Origin: Enterobacter kobei
Lineage (GTDB): Bacteria; Pseudomonadota; Gammaproteobacteria; Enterobacterales; Enterobacteriaceae
Assembly (NCBI RefSeq): GCF_001729765.1
Contig: NZ_CP017181.1
Location: 1,612,001 to 1,676,000 of the forward strand
Reading direction: 5' to 3'
Length of the DNA stretch: 64,000 bases
Shown here: in pieces, positions 51,987-57,728 of the stretch
Layout of the letters: each line of letters begins with the position of its first letter
How positions within the stretch are numbered: the first letter of the stretch is position 1
Program-made: the position numbers and the translations under genes
Notes under the pieces: generated by a model
Seen by the model: the letters and a program-made list of their open reading frames with translations, nothing else
The model's database searches: none
Told to the model about the DNA's origin: nothing

Positions 51987-52089
51987 GAGGGCGGGCTGAA
52001 TGTTATGCTGTTAAAATCGCCGATATGTCGTCAGTTCAACCGATTAAACGCGTTTTGGCTATTTTTACAGCGAACGATTGCAGCCACTC

Positions 52090-52118
52090 TTTACAGCACG
52101 CGGTGAGGTGTTTATAGT
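52090..52118 (+). promoter_or_regulatory. serT promoter
   Basis: TTTACA (52090-52095) and TATAGT (52113-52118) are 17 bases apart, followed by a GC-rich discriminator (TCGCC) typical of stringently controlled tRNA promoters. Confidence 0.7.
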
Positions 52119-52218
52119 TCGCCTCACTTAGGAAGTGTGGCCGAGCGGTTGAAGGCACCGGTCTTGAAAACCGGCGACCCGAAAGGGTTCCAGAGTTCGA
52201 ATCTCTGCGCTTCCGCCA
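52109..52218 (+). repeat. 110-base direct repeat, copy 1 (serT with promoter end)
   Basis: The stretch from TGTTTATAGT to the tRNA CCA end recurs at 57581-57690 with five substitutions and no gaps. The two copies bound the hydrolase-dlt segment. Confidence 0.9.
52131..52218 (+). tRNA. serT: tRNA-Ser(UGA)
   Basis: The 88-base gene includes an encoded CCA end. Acceptor GGAAGTG pairs with CGCTTCC (one T-G pair). The anticodon loop CTTGAAA has anticodon TGA, and a long variable arm (CGACCCGAAAGGGTT) marks class II tRNA-Ser. It matches E. coli serT as I know it and is in the expected place after yccA. Confidence 0.98.
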
Positions 52219-52223
52219 GATAT

Positions 52224-52256
52224 AAACCCCAGCTTACTCGTTAAGCTGGGGTTTTT
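52224..52256 (+). terminator. serT terminator
   Basis: AAACCCCAGCTT, ACTCGTT and AAGCTGGGGTTT, then T residues, lie just after the tRNA. Confidence 0.9.
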
Positions 52257-52284: not shown

Positions 52285-53121
52285 TTATGAACGGATAAAC
52301 GCAAGAATGTCCGCGTTGATGGTCTCCGCATGCGTGGTGTGCATCCCGTGCGGGAAGCCTGGATAAATTTTCAGCACGCTGTTCGCCAGCAGCTTGTCCT
52401 GCAGAAGGGCGGCATTCTTATACGGTACGACCTGATCGTCATCGCCCTGCATTACCAGAACGGGAACCGTGATGGCTTTTAAGTCCTCCGTCTGGTCAGT
52501 CTCTGAAAACGCCTTAATCCCCTCATAGTGCGCTTTGGCACTGCCAATCATTCCCTGACGCCACCAGTTCTGAATCGTACCCTGTGAAACCTCCGCGCCA
52601 TCCCGGTTAAAACCGTAAAAAGGGCCGCTGGCTACGTCGAGGTAAAACTGCGCGCGATTGGCTGCCAGCGCACTACGGAAGCCGTCAAACACCTCGATGG
52701 GTGTCCCGCCGGGGTTATCCTCTGTTTTGACCATCAGCGGGGGAACGGCGCTGACGAGCACCGCTTTGGCGACGCGCCCCTGCGGCTGGCCGTATTTCGC
52801 TACATAGCGGGCGACCTGGCCGCCGCCGGTAGAGTGACCGACATGCACGGCATTGTGCAGATCCAGGCTTTCAACCACGGCCGACGCGTCGGCCGCATAA
52901 TGATCCATATCGTGACCTTCACTGACCTGATCCGAACGTCCATGACCACGACGATCGATAGCGATAACGCGATAGCCCTCTGCAAGGAAGAAGAGCATCT
53001 GGTTATCCCAGTCATCGGCACTCAATGGCCAGCCGTGATGGAAAACAATGGGTTGAGCTTCTTTCGGACCCCAGTCTTTGTAGTAAATGTTGACGCCGTC
53101 TTTCGTTGTTACGAATGCCAT
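52285..53121 (-). CDS. alpha/beta hydrolase (cofactor-free haloperoxidase/esterase type)
   Basis: The 278-residue protein has the full alpha/beta hydrolase triad: Ser97 in GHSTGGG, an Asp in the MQGDDDQVVP strand region and His in FPHGMHTTH. It follows the haloperoxidase/arylesterase subgroup (YYKDWGPKEAQPIVFHHGWPLS, RRGHGRSDQ). It is soluble with no signal peptide. The true substrate is unknown. It lies 154 bases after dltC in the same direction; a hairpin separates them, so co-transcription is uncertain. Confidence 0.85.
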   Translation of the reverse strand: MAFVTTKDGVNIYYKDWGPKEAQPIVFHHGWPLSADDWDNQMLFFLAEGYRVIAIDRRGHGRSDQVSEGHDMDHYAADASAVVESLDLHNAVHVGHSTGGGQVARYVAKYGQPQGRVAKAVLVSAVPPLMVKTEDNPGGTPIEVFDGFRSALAANRAQFYLDVASGPFYGFNRDGAEVSQGTIQNWWRQGMIGSAKAHYEGIKAFSETDQTEDLKAITVPVLVMQGDDDQVVPYKNAALLQDKLLANSVLKIYPGFPHGMHTTHAETINADILAFIRS

Positions 53122-53275: not shown

Positions 53276-53494
53276 TTAGCGGTTCTCTTCAATATAGCGG
53301 GCGAGATCTGCCGGGGTCTTCAACACCGTCGCTACGTCAGTTGGCGGGATCATACAGCCGTAAACGTCCTGCACTTCCAGCACCATATCGACTGCCAGAA
53401 TAGAGTCGAGAATATCAGATTCAATCAGTTCATCGTGAAAGCCCACTTTACGGGATAATACTTTTTCGAACAGAGCGAGAATTTCGTTTTCCAT
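53276..53494 (-). CDS. dltC: DltC-like D-alanyl carrier protein
   Basis: From the ATG at 53494 (AGGA upstream) this is a 72-residue acidic carrier. The phosphopantetheine site is Ser31 in LDSI, within ESDILDSILAVDMVLEVQ, close to the DltC pattern. The carrier is charged with D-alanine by DltA in the cytoplasm and presents it to the membrane acyltransferase. The frame open to 53551 overlaps dltA and is not needed. It is last in the dlt operon, 16 bases after dltA. Confidence 0.88.
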   Translation of the reverse strand: MENEILALFEKVLSRKVGFHDELIESDILDSILAVDMVLEVQDVYGCMIPPTDVATVLKTPADLARYIEENR

Positions 53495-53510: not shown

Positions 53511-54944
53511 TTAATGAGTGCGGGCGTAAGCGTCCAGCAATTTGCGGTCAATTTTGCCGTTAGGGTTCAGCGGCAACGCGTCTTTTACGATAATTTGTGA
53601 AGGCACCATATAGTGGGGAACCACTTTCGACAGCGAGGTTTTGATCGTATCCGGTGCCATTTCCGTCACGCAGAACGCGGCAATACGCAGCACGCTGCCG
53701 CAGGGTTTCATCAGCGGCATCACTACCGCTTCATTAATGCCGGACATGGCCAGCAGACGGTTTTCGATCTCGTTGATTTCAATACGGTAGCCATTCAGTT
53801 TGACCTGACTATCGTTGCGACCCTGGCAATAGATCATCCCCGCTGCATAACCCAGATCGCCGGTCCGGTAGCCGCGACACGCGTCATCTTCCCGATGCAG
53901 TAATTTTGCCGCGTTCTCCTGCGGCAGGCCGAGGTAGCCGCGCATGACGTTTTTACCCCAGATAATCAGCTCGCCCTCGGCGGAAATGTCCATTCTGCTC
54001 TCCGGCATCATGACCCCCACCGGCAGCACGGCGCTGTCCTGGTTAAGGATCTCATCCGTAATTTCAACCACCGTCGTCGCGATGGTCGCTTCCGTTGGGC
54101 CATAGGAGTTGATGATTTTGGCCTGCGGGAAACGGCGGCGCAGCTGTTTAACCAGCGCTTTATTGAGCACTTCACCAATGAAGATAAAGACGCCGAGTTC
54201 AGGCAAATACTCGCTGTTAAACTGCGGGGACAGCAGCTGCTGGTAGGCAAAAGAGGGCGTGGACACCCAGGCGGAGACCGCGTTGCTTTTGAGTCGCGCC
54301 AGCCAGTTCTCTTTCTGAATATCCTCTTTGGCGTTGAGCACGATGTGTCCGCCCATCGCCAGGTTCGCCAGCAAAGGGATCAGGGAGAGGTCAAAGCTGA
54401 ACACCGCGTGGTTCATCAGCACCGGTTTTGCCGGCAGGGAAAAGTCCTGGCTGACCCATTTCATGAAGTGCCAGACGCTCTCACGTCCAATCTGCACGCC
54501 TTTCGGTTTGCCGGTGCTGCCTGAGGTAAACATGATATAGGCCAGATCCTGCTCTTCCAGGACCTTGCCCGCTTCACCGGTGGCAATAAACTGCCGGGTT
54601 GCCACGTCGTAATAGTAAGGGACACTGGCCAGGCTACAAATCTCCCGGAGCCGCTCCTGCGGGTAGATGCAATCCACCGGGATGTACGGAATGTTGTGCA
54701 ACAGGCAGCTATAAATCGCCACGGCGAACTCGGCCTGCTGATGACCATATAATACGACCGATGTGCCTTCGATAGGCTTGCAGCGTTGATAGCGTTCCGC
54801 CCAGTCCATCACGGCGGCGGAAAGCTGTAGCCAGCTGAGGGTTTCGTCGCTACCCGTGATGGCCAGCTGCTGCGGGGAGGCGGGATCGCGCAATGCCGCA
54901 CGTAAGAAATCCTGCAGTTCCTGCAGATCGGTGTGATTTTTCAT
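53511..54944 (-). CDS. dltA: DltA-like D-alanine-carrier protein ligase
   Basis: A 477-residue adenylate-forming enzyme of DltA length. The phosphate loop SGSTGKPKG is at residues 141-149. YGPTEATIATT, GYRTGDLG and GYRIEINEIE follow, and the catalytic Lys464 is in LNPNGKIDRK. It should activate D-alanine (or another small amino acid) and load it on the DltC-like carrier. The start overlaps the dltB stop (ATGA). Substrate identity rests on context and is not proven. Confidence 0.88.
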   Translation of the reverse strand: MKNHTDLQELQDFLRAALRDPASPQQLAITGSDETLSWLQLSAAVMDWAERYQRCKPIEGTSVVLYGHQQAEFAVAIYSCLLHNIPYIPVDCIYPQERLREICSLASVPYYYDVATRQFIATGEAGKVLEEQDLAYIMFTSGSTGKPKGVQIGRESVWHFMKWVSQDFSLPAKPVLMNHAVFSFDLSLIPLLANLAMGGHIVLNAKEDIQKENWLARLKSNAVSAWVSTPSFAYQQLLSPQFNSEYLPELGVFIFIGEVLNKALVKQLRRRFPQAKIINSYGPTEATIATTVVEITDEILNQDSAVLPVGVMMPESRMDISAEGELIIWGKNVMRGYLGLPQENAAKLLHREDDACRGYRTGDLGYAAGMIYCQGRNDSQVKLNGYRIEINEIENRLLAMSGINEAVVMPLMKPCGSVLRIAAFCVTEMAPDTIKTSLSKVVPHYMVPSQIIVKDALPLNPNGKIDRKLLDAYARTH

Positions 54945-56062
54945 AGAGGAGACATTCCACTAAAGATGTAAAGGGATCCTGCGGCGCTGCCCAGCGTCAG
55001 AATTCGCCCCAAAAACGCCACTGCCGGATACTGCAAACCGCGGTGTAATGCCGGGCTGCGTTTGGCTGACCACAGCAGCATGTTGTGTGCGACAGAAATG
55101 GCGCCAAACAGCGCGCCGCTGATGACATAATGGCGTTCCAGGCCATTCCATGCCCCCATGCAGAACAGGGTGCAAAAAATACCGATATTTTGCGCCAGCG
55201 TTTTGTTCTGACGGAAAAAGTTGAACTTCATCAGGTTCATATAGACGGGCATAAACACCACATCGCGCAGCCATTCAGACAGGCTGATGTGGAAGCGCCG
55301 CCAGAAGTCCTGAGGGTTCTTTGCAAGCAGCGGCATATTGAAGTTTGCCGGAATATTCAGCCCGAATAAGCGCCCGGCACCGATGGCCATATTGCTGTAA
55401 CCCGCAAAATCAAAGTACAGATAGGCGCTGTAAGCAATCGACATCACCACGCCGACGGTCAGCGAAAACGGCTTATGGCTCCAGGGCTGCACCACAAGCG
55501 AATCGATCAGCATGGCAAACAGGAACTTCTGGATGATGCCGGTGACGATCTGCTCTAACGCTGTTAAACATTGTTCACGGTTAAGGGTGAATGCGGGTTT
55601 ATTCACATCGCTCATCCATGTCCGCCAGCGGTACATCGGCCCGGCCAGAATAATAAAGGGCATAAAGAGGTAGCAGAAATAGTGCAGAATATTCTGGCCC
55701 TCTTTTTTACTGCGATACAACAGCACATCCACCGCGCGAAAGGTCATAAAAGAGAGACCGATCATGCCGAGATGGTGATTAAAATGTAATTTCACCAAAA
55801 ACAGTGGCAGCAGCGTTAACACGATCGCCTGCCAGGTTTTTAACCATCCTTTTTCTTTTAACGTGGCGAAAAGATAAAAACAGCCAAAAACGATCGCCGG
55901 AATACGATAATCGCCCTGAAAAATATAGCCCCAGCCCAATGCTGTCAGGACGGCCAAGGACGATAACCAGGTCAGGCGATGGCGCAGCAGGCGATTAATC
56001 AGCGCAAATACCCCTGCCGATGAAAATAAACAGACAAAAAACAGTCCTGAGCTGTACATCAT
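54941..56062 (-). CDS. dltB: DltB-like MBOAT acyltransferase with altered histidine sites
   Basis: A 373-residue polytopic membrane protein of the MBOAT/DltB family: FAGYSNMAIGAGRLFGL, NPQDFWRRFHISLSEWLRDVVF and MGAWNGLERHYVISGALFG are diagnostic. DltB moves D-alanine from DltC across the membrane. In the usual MGxWHG...YGLFHG segment, the two conserved histidines align with Asn306 and Phe319 here. Other nearby histidines (311, 326) could compensate. A second ATG one codon in is an alternative start. It is six bases after the dltX-like gene. Confidence 0.87.
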   Translation of the reverse strand: MMYSSGLFFVCLFSSAGVFALINRLLRHRLTWLSSLAVLTALGWGYIFQGDYRIPAIVFGCFYLFATLKEKGWLKTWQAIVLTLLPLFLVKLHFNHHLGMIGLSFMTFRAVDVLLYRSKKEGQNILHYFCYLFMPFIILAGPMYRWRTWMSDVNKPAFTLNREQCLTALEQIVTGIIQKFLFAMLIDSLVVQPWSHKPFSLTVGVVMSIAYSAYLYFDFAGYSNMAIGAGRLFGLNIPANFNMPLLAKNPQDFWRRFHISLSEWLRDVVFMPVYMNLMKFNFFRQNKTLAQNIGIFCTLFCMGAWNGLERHYVISGALFGAISVAHNMLLWSAKRSPALHRGLQYPAVAFLGRILTLGSAAGSLYIFSGMSPL

Positions 56063-56068
56063 TCGGCC

Positions 56069-56188
56069 TCAGAATTTCTGATATTCAAAATGAAGTTGCA
56101 TACTCATGCTGTCATCGACAGCGGTCCACGCGACGATGGTGATCCCAAGCAGGAGATAAAGGAAAAACAGACGGATCGCGATTTTCAT
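56069..56188 (-). CDS. dltX: DltX-like membrane microprotein ending FEYQKF
   Basis: ATG at 56188 to TGA at 56069 encodes 39 residues: a basic start (MKIAIR), one membrane helix (about 7-24, LFFLYLLLGITIVAWTAV), a short polar linker and the end HFEYQKF. In Gram-positive systems DltX is a single-helix peptide whose C-terminal FxYxxF motif carries D-alanine on its Tyr between DltB and DltD. Tyr36 fits exactly. The start overlaps the dltD stop (TAATG) and dltB follows after six bases, so the gene is translationally embedded in the operon. It is too short for most gene finders. Confidence 0.82.
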   Translation of the reverse strand: MKIAIRLFFLYLLLGITIVAWTAVDDSMSMQLHFEYQKF

Positions 56189-57327
56189 TATTTAAAACTC
56201 TGTGCAATAAAGCGAAGCATAGGCACCCAGGCCAGTTCAGTCGGGTGCAGTCGGTCCCAGTTCCAGCCATTCTGATAAGGCATAGCGTACATATCTAAAT
56301 AAGGGATCTGGTTCTCTTTCAGAATGGATTGAATTTGCTTATCGTACGGGCGGAACGTGTCGGTATGGTAAAGCGCCCACGGGTTAACCGGGTCGACGAT
56401 AGCAATGACCTGCACGTGATGTGCCTTCAGCAGCTGGACGGTTTTCCTGAACGCAGCGAATTGGCCGGGCACCACCGGCGTGTCATCCCACTGCTGCGGC
56501 TTACCGTCCTCTTCGTAAATCGTTTTGTCCATCCACAGGGTCGCCGCGCTTTGCTGGCGAACTTTATTTAATTCACGGGCATTCGCCAGCTCTTTATTCC
56601 AGTCCGGAGTCATGTGGGTGGTTGGCTGTTGCGGCCAGGGTTGCGCCGTCTCAGGCCTGATATTGAGCAGCGACAGCCAGTCGTTTTTTATCAGGGTACA
56701 AAAATTAGCGAACTGGAAACCGATCTCATCCCAAATCAGATCGGGGTGCCAGCCGAAGACACGCATTTGCCCAAAGGTTAAATGGCTTATCTCTTTAGCA
56801 TCAATATGTTTTAAATAATTCACGAGGATCGGACGTGCCTGCGGATCCTTCATCAGGGGATCAAAAACAGAGCCCGGAAAATTATCCGCATAGATAGCGG
56901 GTGGCAGACCTTTTGAGTAAAAGCTGTCAGGTGCCAACAATAAAACCACTTTACTGTTTGCGTTAAGGCTATTTTTAAAACGTGAAAACAGTAAAAATTG
57001 TGTTTCATCATCGACAAACGCATCGCCATACGCCACGACGGGTTGGTGTAATTGCTGATTAAAATAATGATAGACCGCGTAATGTTCATCTTCGGAGGTG
57101 GCAACTTCAGAGGCACCAATGAAGAAAATGGCATTCCCCTCCAGGGCATGGGAAATGGTGGCAATTTTTTCCGCTTGTTCTTTCGGTGTGCCCGCCATGG
57201 ATTTGATCAGCGGCTGGAATTTAAGCGGCGGATCAAAGCTGGTCACCAGCGGGTGAATGCTGAGGAATAAAATGGCCAGGGCTGCCATCAGGATATGTAA
57301 GCAAAACGTATTTTTGATTTTCATCAT
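56188..57327 (-). CDS. dltD: DltD-like extracytoplasmic acyl transferase/thioesterase
   Basis: The 379-residue protein has an N-terminal membrane anchor (about 8-28) and a DltD SGNH-type domain outside the membrane. Ser73 in IGASE is the nucleophile, with Asp358 and His361 in WDRLHPTE near the C-terminus. DltD transfers the D-alanine from DltX to the final polymer. Here it is the first gene of the operon, unlike the usual last place in Firmicutes. The acceptor in a Gram-negative envelope is unknown. Confidence 0.88.
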   Translation of the reverse strand: MMKIKNTFCLHILMAALAILFLSIHPLVTSFDPPLKFQPLIKSMAGTPKEQAEKIATISHALEGNAIFFIGASEVATSEDEHYAVYHYFNQQLHQPVVAYGDAFVDDETQFLLFSRFKNSLNANSKVVLLLAPDSFYSKGLPPAIYADNFPGSVFDPLMKDPQARPILVNYLKHIDAKEISHLTFGQMRVFGWHPDLIWDEIGFQFANFCTLIKNDWLSLLNIRPETAQPWPQQPTTHMTPDWNKELANARELNKVRQQSAATLWMDKTIYEEDGKPQQWDDTPVVPGQFAAFRKTVQLLKAHHVQVIAIVDPVNPWALYHTDTFRPYDKQIQSILKENQIPYLDMYAMPYQNGWNWDRLHPTELAWVPMLRFIAQSFK

Positions 57328-57561
57328 TAACCAGTAAGACTACATGGCGGCAATTTTCTAAAATCCGTTAATAACCGGCTTTATAACAATTACACAACAA
57401 ATGGCCGTCTATTTTGGGGCATTCTATACCAGAGCGATTTAGAAGGATGAGCGTTGCCGTGTAACGGTATGTACAAGTGGGAGAGAGCGACGCGGGGATC
57501 GTGGAATGAGCGATTTTTTGCGCAGTTAAACGCCAGGGCGTAGAAATAGAAAAATTCCTGC

Positions 57562-57590
57562 TTTACAAGGCGCTAATAGATGTTTATAGT
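57562..57590 (+). promoter_or_regulatory. promoter of the second tRNA-Ser
   Basis: TTTACA (57562-57567) and TATAGT (57585-57590) are 17 bases apart, identical boxes and spacing to the serT promoter. The 275 bases between dltD and the tRNA also hold the unassigned dlt promoter. Confidence 0.65.
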
Positions 57591-57690
57591 GCGCCTCACT
57601 TTGGAAGCGTGGCCGAGCGGTTGAAGGCACCGGTCTTGAAAACCGGCGACCCGAAAGGGTTCTAGAGTTCGAATCTCTACGCTTCCGCCA
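57581..57690 (+). repeat. 110-base direct repeat, copy 2
   Basis: Same length as 52109-52218 with five substitutions: one between the -10 box and the tRNA start, one just before the tRNA, and three within the tRNA. Confidence 0.9.
57603..57690 (+). tRNA. second tRNA-Ser(UGA) copy
   Basis: The 88-base gene has anticodon TGA and an encoded CCA end, and is intact. It differs from the first copy at three positions: acceptor T to C (turning a T-G pair into C-G) and a C-G to T-A change at the base of the T stem. All changes keep or improve pairing, so the copy should be functional. Confidence 0.96.
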
Positions 57691-57696
57691 AATTCG

Positions 57697-57728
57697 AAAC
57701 CCAGGTCGTTATGCGACCTGGGTTTTTT
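57697..57728 (+). terminator. terminator of the second tRNA-Ser
   Basis: AAACCCAGGTCG, TTATG and CGACCTGGGTTT, then TTT, form a 12-base-pair stem. The sequence is unrelated to the first serT terminator, so the duplicated unit stopped at the tRNA end. Confidence 0.88.

Follow-up and report, generated by a model that had tools for sequence, protein, structure and literature searches.

We analyzed a 64,000-nucleotide stretch of Enterobacter kobei DNA (contig NZ_CP017181.1, positions 1,612,001 to 1,676,000), called here the window, whose own numbering is used below. Its minus strand carries a five-gene operon in the order dltD, a short dltX-like open reading frame (ORF), dltB, dltA, dltC. The ORF is a real, conserved gene under selection, present in the operon at every locus of the set of relatives described below, and its product is very probably a DltX-type acyl-shuttle microprotein. 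The gene and its terminal motif are located as follows.

56188..56069, minus strand: dltX-like gene, 39 amino acids (aa), with one helix predicted to cross the membrane and FEYQKF at the C terminus (Phe34, Glu35, Tyr36, Phe39)
56072..56089, minus strand: FEYQKF shuttle motif codons (Tyr36, 56081-56083; Glu35, 56084-56086)

The ORF translates as MKIAIRLFFLYLLLGITIVAWTAVDDSMSMQLHFEYQKF, then a stop codon. As the original prediction had it, the product has 39 residues and ends in FEYQKF, the start of the gene overlaps the end of dltD (57327..56188) by one base, and a six-base gap separates it from dltB (56062..54941); translation and coordinates bear this out. The peptide has one hydrophobic segment (best 19-residue Kyte-Doolittle mean, 2.24). 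On the basis of composition, the chance that an FxYxxF motif closes one ORF is about 7e-4.

Related loci were selected by DltB similarity, independently of the ORF, giving a first set of 48 and a wider set of 78 (6, 2 on plasmids, 40, 25, and 5 from separate searches), with some genomes counted twice. The tail was found in frame just 5′ of dltB at all 48 loci of the first set, and [FY]EYQ[KQ]F stood directly before the stop codon at all 78 loci of the wider set. An ATG lay at the right distance in 75 of the 78, with 53 different DNA sequences. In the other three (L093, L101, and L124), the N terminus was broken and the C terminus intact, and in L101 a degenerate dltB lay beside the broken frame. 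The expectation that the frame would be unbroken in relatives thus held for 75 loci and failed, at the N-terminal end, for three. Tyr36 and the last Phe, the former proposed to carry the acyl group, were conserved in 78 of 78 loci as predicted. Conservation of the first flanking Phe was less complete, as it is Tyr in L128 and L129, which carry a two-residue insertion and end in YEYQQF; judging from their 374-residue DltB, we infer that these two are of the Photorhabdus type. The copies with a broken dltX N terminus appear to be decaying, as does L100, which gave partial dltB and dltD matches only; L093 and L100 are from Symbiopectobacterium and L101 is from Enterobacter sp. EA-1, and L124 shares the broken end of L093. 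The dltB start in the window is in the dltX frame, after one stop and two codons; at 31 of the 48 loci of the first set, the gap is seven bases and the frames differ.

Selection on the peptide was estimated from 52 different DNA sequences representing 73 loci, with the 3 broken loci and the 2 with the two-residue insertion omitted. The ratio of nonsynonymous to synonymous differences (pN/pS) was 0.205 (pN, 0.104; pS, 0.510), and pN was lower than pS in 1,325 of 1,326 pairs, which are not independent of each other. Five of the six tail positions (Phe34, Glu35, Tyr36, Gln37, and Phe39) were invariant in all 52 sequences, as were seven positions in or near the helix (4, 7, 8, 14, 17, 20, and 21). 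The other two frames of the same strand contained 1 to 6 stops each. A protein database search (E up to 10) returned 81 homologues. Among these, 73 end in [FY]EYQ[KQ]F, 4 have one altered tail residue but retain Glu-Tyr, and 4 stop before Tyr or end differently; Tyr is therefore retained in 77 of 81.

The gene is called by annotation but is not named as DltX. Homologues on plasmids adjoin a named DltD and are annotated as "hypothetical protein" WP_255423173.1 (three plasmid records, of which two regions were read). The name DltX did not occur among the names shown for the 81 database homologues, most of which are nameless. The description of the gene as unannotated was therefore right about the name and wrong about the gene call. 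Pandin and coworkers are reported to have named dltDXBAC operons in the soft-rot enterobacteria Dickeya and Pectobacterium in 2016, so that the occurrence of dltX in this group is probably no novelty. That work is not known to propose a shuttle mechanism or to discuss the active site of DltB. The Pectobacterium and Dickeya dltX is the same gene in the same position as that in the window, and copies of it are among the loci read here.

Like Gram-positive DltX, the enterobacterial peptide is a small protein of a dlt operon with one hydrophobic segment, an FxYxxF end, and a short DltB as its partner. The gene is surrounded by dltA, dltB, dltC, and dltD, and its terminal motif has an invariant Tyr. 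The two differ in their tails, which read FIYNEF in five annotated Gram-positive DltX proteins and FEYQ(K/Q)F in the enterobacterial peptide, and in gene position, since Gram-positive dltX precedes dltA while enterobacterial dltX lies between dltD and dltB. They also differ in their partners, as the catalytic His is kept in Gram-positive DltB and absent from the DltB that accompanies the enterobacterial gene. A PDB search with the window peptide gave no match of note. Taken together, the sequences suggest that the product is probably DltX-like in function and, by the descent of its partner, a probable ortholog that falls outside the Pfam family PF12459 as now drawn.

The partner gene and the codons of two of its residues are located as follows.

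54941..56062, minus strand: dltB, a membrane-bound O-acyltransferase (MBOAT), 373 aa, with no fused C-terminal shuttle motif (Asn306, Ser315, His258)
55145..55147, minus strand: codon of DltB Asn306, equivalent in alignments to His336 of Streptococcus thermophilus DltB
55289..55291, minus strand: codon of DltB His258 in the re-entrant loop, equivalent in alignments to His289 of S. thermophilus DltB

Both fold and descent identify this protein as a DltB. It matched Pfam MBOAT (PF03062; E, 6.8e-11) and, short of the model's cut-off, TIGR04091 (E, 5.7e-58). When 46 chosen rows were placed in a tree, 22 Gram-negative DltB proteins formed one clade (support, 100/100) that was sister to 8 Gram-positive DltB proteins (99/96). 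The nearest named loci by DltB belong to Enterobacter species (92-94% identity). His336, His289, and Tyr345 are described as key active-site residues of solved DltB (PMC11035591), all MBOATs are said to share the catalytic His (PMC12979248, PMC12148441), and MBOAT catalysis is thought to use this invariant His of transmembrane helix 6′ (TM6′) together with an Asn, Asp, or His on a re-entrant loop (PMC12979248). In the window's DltB, the invariant TM6′ His is replaced by Asn306, and a His is present on re-entrant loop 2, so that the dyad is exchanged, with Asn on TM6′ and His on the loop. The MGxWHG block reads MGAWNG in alignments with the solved DltB and with eight Gram-positive DltB proteins (probability, 100), and the identity of the His336 site was counted along the former.

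The exchange extends across the clade. Among the best 120 of 318 DltB homologues, 115 were readable at the catalytic His site, the other five being frameshifted or truncated; the residue was Asn in 113, Asp in 1, Thr in 1, and His in none. In the same 120, the Tyr345 site was Ser in all 114 proteins with the motif (Ser315 in the window), and the loop pattern with its His was present in 118. The loop His equivalent to His258 was retained in all 64 aligned rows. At the level of loci, WNG was found in 72 of 73, the exception being the degenerate L101; Gram-positive DltB had WHG in 8 of 8. Named clade members among the matches listed include Photorhabdus, Bordetella pertussis, B. bronchiseptica, B. 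avium, Achromobacter, Paralcaligenes, and Janthinobacterium. Glu309, His311, and His326 were rejected as a clade-wide replacement base because they vary, being retained in 35, 29, and 33 of the 64 rows, respectively. The abstract openings and passages searched, including passages of PMC10142376, PMC10213974, PMC10903887, PMC5541007, and PMC3544676, contained no statement that Gram-negative DltB lacks the His, which is no proof that none is in print.

In other MBOATs, a similar tail is fused to the enzyme. Acyl-Tyr has been demonstrated for PatA, where the same tail motif is catalytic (PMC12148441). PatA and other fused MBOATs share with the window's peptide a Tyr in an FxYxxF tail; they differ from the Dlt pair in that the tail is part of the MBOAT and the catalytic His is kept (67 of 67 frames), and the substrate of PatA is acetyl-CoA. 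The residue directly before the Tyr also differs, being Ile, Leu, or Val in 60 of 60 fused tails, with Glu at that place in none, and Glu in 78 of 78 dlt loci. This contrast is weakened by the Gram-positive FIYNEF tail, which also has a Glu, two places after the Tyr. Moreover, the pairing of Glu35 with Asn306 may reflect shared ancestry, since it was seen in Enterobacterales loci only.

Shuttle peptides encoded apart from their MBOAT may occur beyond Dlt systems as well. Four of six short MBOATs outside the Dlt clade adjoin a small ORF, listed here with the residues in which it ends (L133, 4936-5091, FIYWDN; L134, 5187-5330, FRYAGF; L135, 2227-2379, FIYVSF; L138, 1699-1827, LVYKNM), and an AMP-binding gene lies near two of these four. 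The other two short MBOAT frames, in L136 and L137, look frameshifted or cut. Used as a query, the L134 microprotein matched itself only.

The remaining genes of the operon are as follows.

56188..57327, minus strand: dltD, SGNH-type acyltransferase, 379 aa, with a FIGASE nucleophile block and DRLH near the C terminus (DltD PF04914; E, 2.3e-22)
53511..54944, minus strand: dltA, amino-acid:carrier ligase, 477 aa (AMP-binding; E, 3.1e-46; PRK04813; E, 5.6e-112, below the model's cut-off)
53276..53494, minus strand: dltC, carrier protein, 72 aa from ATG (PP-binding PF00550; E, 7.7e-09; PRK05087; E, 6.9e-05, below cut-off)

Matches to NCBIfam Dlt models below the cut-off are as expected for a distant branch. 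FxGASE had 75 matches over the 78 loci, and DltD had no PDB sequence match at E 0.001. The ATG start of dltC is a prediction, and a longer TTG start is listed at 53551. In the PDB, the top matches to the window's DltA are the DltA-type chains 3fcc, 3dhv, and 3e7w. The Cys in the STPSFAEMCLM block of solved DltA is replaced by Gln in the window's protein; in 76 STPSF blocks of the loci, the same site is Lys, Arg, or Gln, and 3 further matches resemble other frames. That Cys is linked to D-Ala selectivity. Because it is altered here, the amino acid used by the window's DltA needs checking. A scan of the window for PhoP boxes gave a weak signal (17 matches versus 9.2 expected, a count reached in 3 of 100 shuffles), and no PhoP box was found within 300 bases upstream of dltD.

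The operon is flanked by two 144-base direct repeat copies.

52089..52232: direct repeat copy 1, containing tRNA-Ser(TGA) at 52131-52218
57561..57704: direct repeat copy 2, containing tRNA-Ser(TGA) at 57603-57690, 88% identical to copy 1

A gene that by eye is alpha/beta hydrolase-like (52285-53121, minus strand) also lies between the repeats. Genomes of the same genus without dlt have the copies 220 bases apart, start to start (G981), or 1.4 kb apart (G166), or have one copy (G248). In 18 relatives' loci scanned, the tRNA pair was present in 5 (four Enterobacter and one Lelliottia), a single copy in one Enterobacter, and none in 12, with the proviso that a second copy can be missed because flanks were 5 kb or less. 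Matches to DltB are patchy in the family (38 of 392 genomes; 13 of 154 genera), and a megablast search with the operon found no match in E. coli genomes. Complete dltDXBAC operons with insertion sequences on both sides occur on plasmids of Enterobacter cloacae and Klebsiella electrica (L031 and L032). The patchy occurrence and the plasmid copies near insertion sequences fit with horizontal spread.

As a whole, these data are best explained if the ORF encodes the DltX-type acyl-shuttle microprotein of an enterobacterial Dlt system, a reading in which we have good confidence. The proposal of a shuttle peptide is supported by the conserved Tyr36 and last Phe, by the short DltB that has no fused motif, and by the sister relationship of this DltB to the Gram-positive proteins. 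In such a relay, DltC would be charged by DltA with an amino acid, by analogy D-alanine. The single DltX helix would sit beside DltB with its C terminus in the periplasm, DltB would transfer the acyl group to Tyr36 in the tail (FEYQKF), and from there DltD would pass it to an envelope acceptor, perhaps lipopolysaccharide. The original prediction went further and suggested the same relay chemistry as in Gram-positive systems. As stated, this does not hold; with a DltB that lacks the catalytic His and Tyr345, and a tail of FEYQ(K/Q)F rather than FIYNEF, the chemistry differs in at least one step. Probably, then, the relay exists with its catalytic base elsewhere than the TM6′ His. The simplest reading, and the probable one, gives this role to His258 of the re-entrant loop, in a swapped dyad with Asn306; a bolder and less likely alternative is that Glu35 of the shuttle itself would serve, the base being brought in by the carrier. 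That Gram-negative Dlt relays use an MBOAT without the universal catalytic His, the base having moved to His258 (with Asn306) or to shuttle Glu35, is a tentative proposal with somewhat less than an even chance of being right. A dltB mutant of Dickeya dadantii is more sensitive to polymyxin (PMC3544676, PMC5541007), and other Dickeya DltB proteins belong to the clade (L084 and L092); together with the conserved residue pattern, this argues that such a DltB is probably not dead.

Several points weigh against the acyl relay. PatA needs the His that is missing here to acylate its Tyr, and Gram-positive DltB needs it to be active (PMC12148441). A D. dadantii dltD mutant is reportedly as resistant as the wild type (PMC5541007), a poor fit with an obligatory hand-over to DltD; we infer that another SGNH enzyme might replace DltD, or that the acceptor might be acylated straight from the peptide. 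Pfam DltX (PF12459) matched neither the window peptide, nor anything in the whole genome, nor the peptides of three relatives, with controls at 1.2e-15 (Listeria DltX) and 2.1e-14 (Staphylococcus DltX). A profile-profile comparison with five Gram-positive DltX proteins (hhalign) aligned the last 8 columns only and was not significant (E, 0.018; probability, 2.6). Selection is not confined to the tail, since helix positions are conserved too. Finally, the dltX loci read for this DltB clade are from Enterobacterales only. No dltX of a betaproteobacterial (Bordetella-type) dlt locus was obtained: Bordetella or Janthinobacterium DltB queries in two genome samples matched enterobacteria only (a single genome of 369, that of the window itself, and 6 of 398). 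The betaproteobacterial 23S signature was absent from 30 and 16 genomes taken from those samples, which may therefore hardly include betaproteobacteria. A betaproteobacterial-type dlt locus was likewise not found on plasmids (40 of 60 records listed) or on viral contigs (17 loci).

Some of these points would suit a microprotein that, as a subunit of a DltB-DltD complex, serves assembly or regulation without being acylated, the His-less DltB being unable to acylate Tyr. Asn306 and Ser315 replace two of the three key DltB active-site residues, the seven invariant helix-region positions are what a docking helix would need, and a 2024 paper still leaves room for a regulatory role of DltX (PMC11035591). 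We nevertheless regard such a subunit as improbable, because conservation is densest in the tail, because Tyr and the last Phe persist in divergent Photorhabdus-type copies, and because this motif has a catalytic role in PatA (PMC12148441). A translational coupler or chance ORF encoding a functionless peptide, as its shortness and its overlap with the dltD stop codon might suggest, is hardly credible given the pN/pS of 0.205, the nearly invariant tail, and the presence of tail and stop at every one of the 78 loci.

Another account is compatible with the shuttle and concerns only its origin: the peptide could be an acyl shuttle that is not orthologous to Gram-positive DltX but has an origin of its own, for example if the tail of a fused MBOAT was split off. 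It has no detectable similarity to Gram-positive DltX beyond the tail, and short MBOATs with small ORFs occur at several places in the tree, where "split" needs 3 changes, although some branches are long and unsure. However, Gram-positive DltB, the sister group of this DltB, likewise has its DltX as a separate protein. Descent from a common split ancestor is therefore the simpler account, and we consider a separate origin unlikely.

In Dickeya, dlt genes help the bacterium to resist cationic peptides, and the passages of the literature consulted gave no established working of Gram-negative DltB. If the relay proposed here is true, a peptide recorded as hypothetical would be a catalytic part of the Dlt system. 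If the whole DltB clade functions without the MBOAT His, these enzymes would be a natural exception to the accepted catalytic model of MBOATs, a large family that includes human members.
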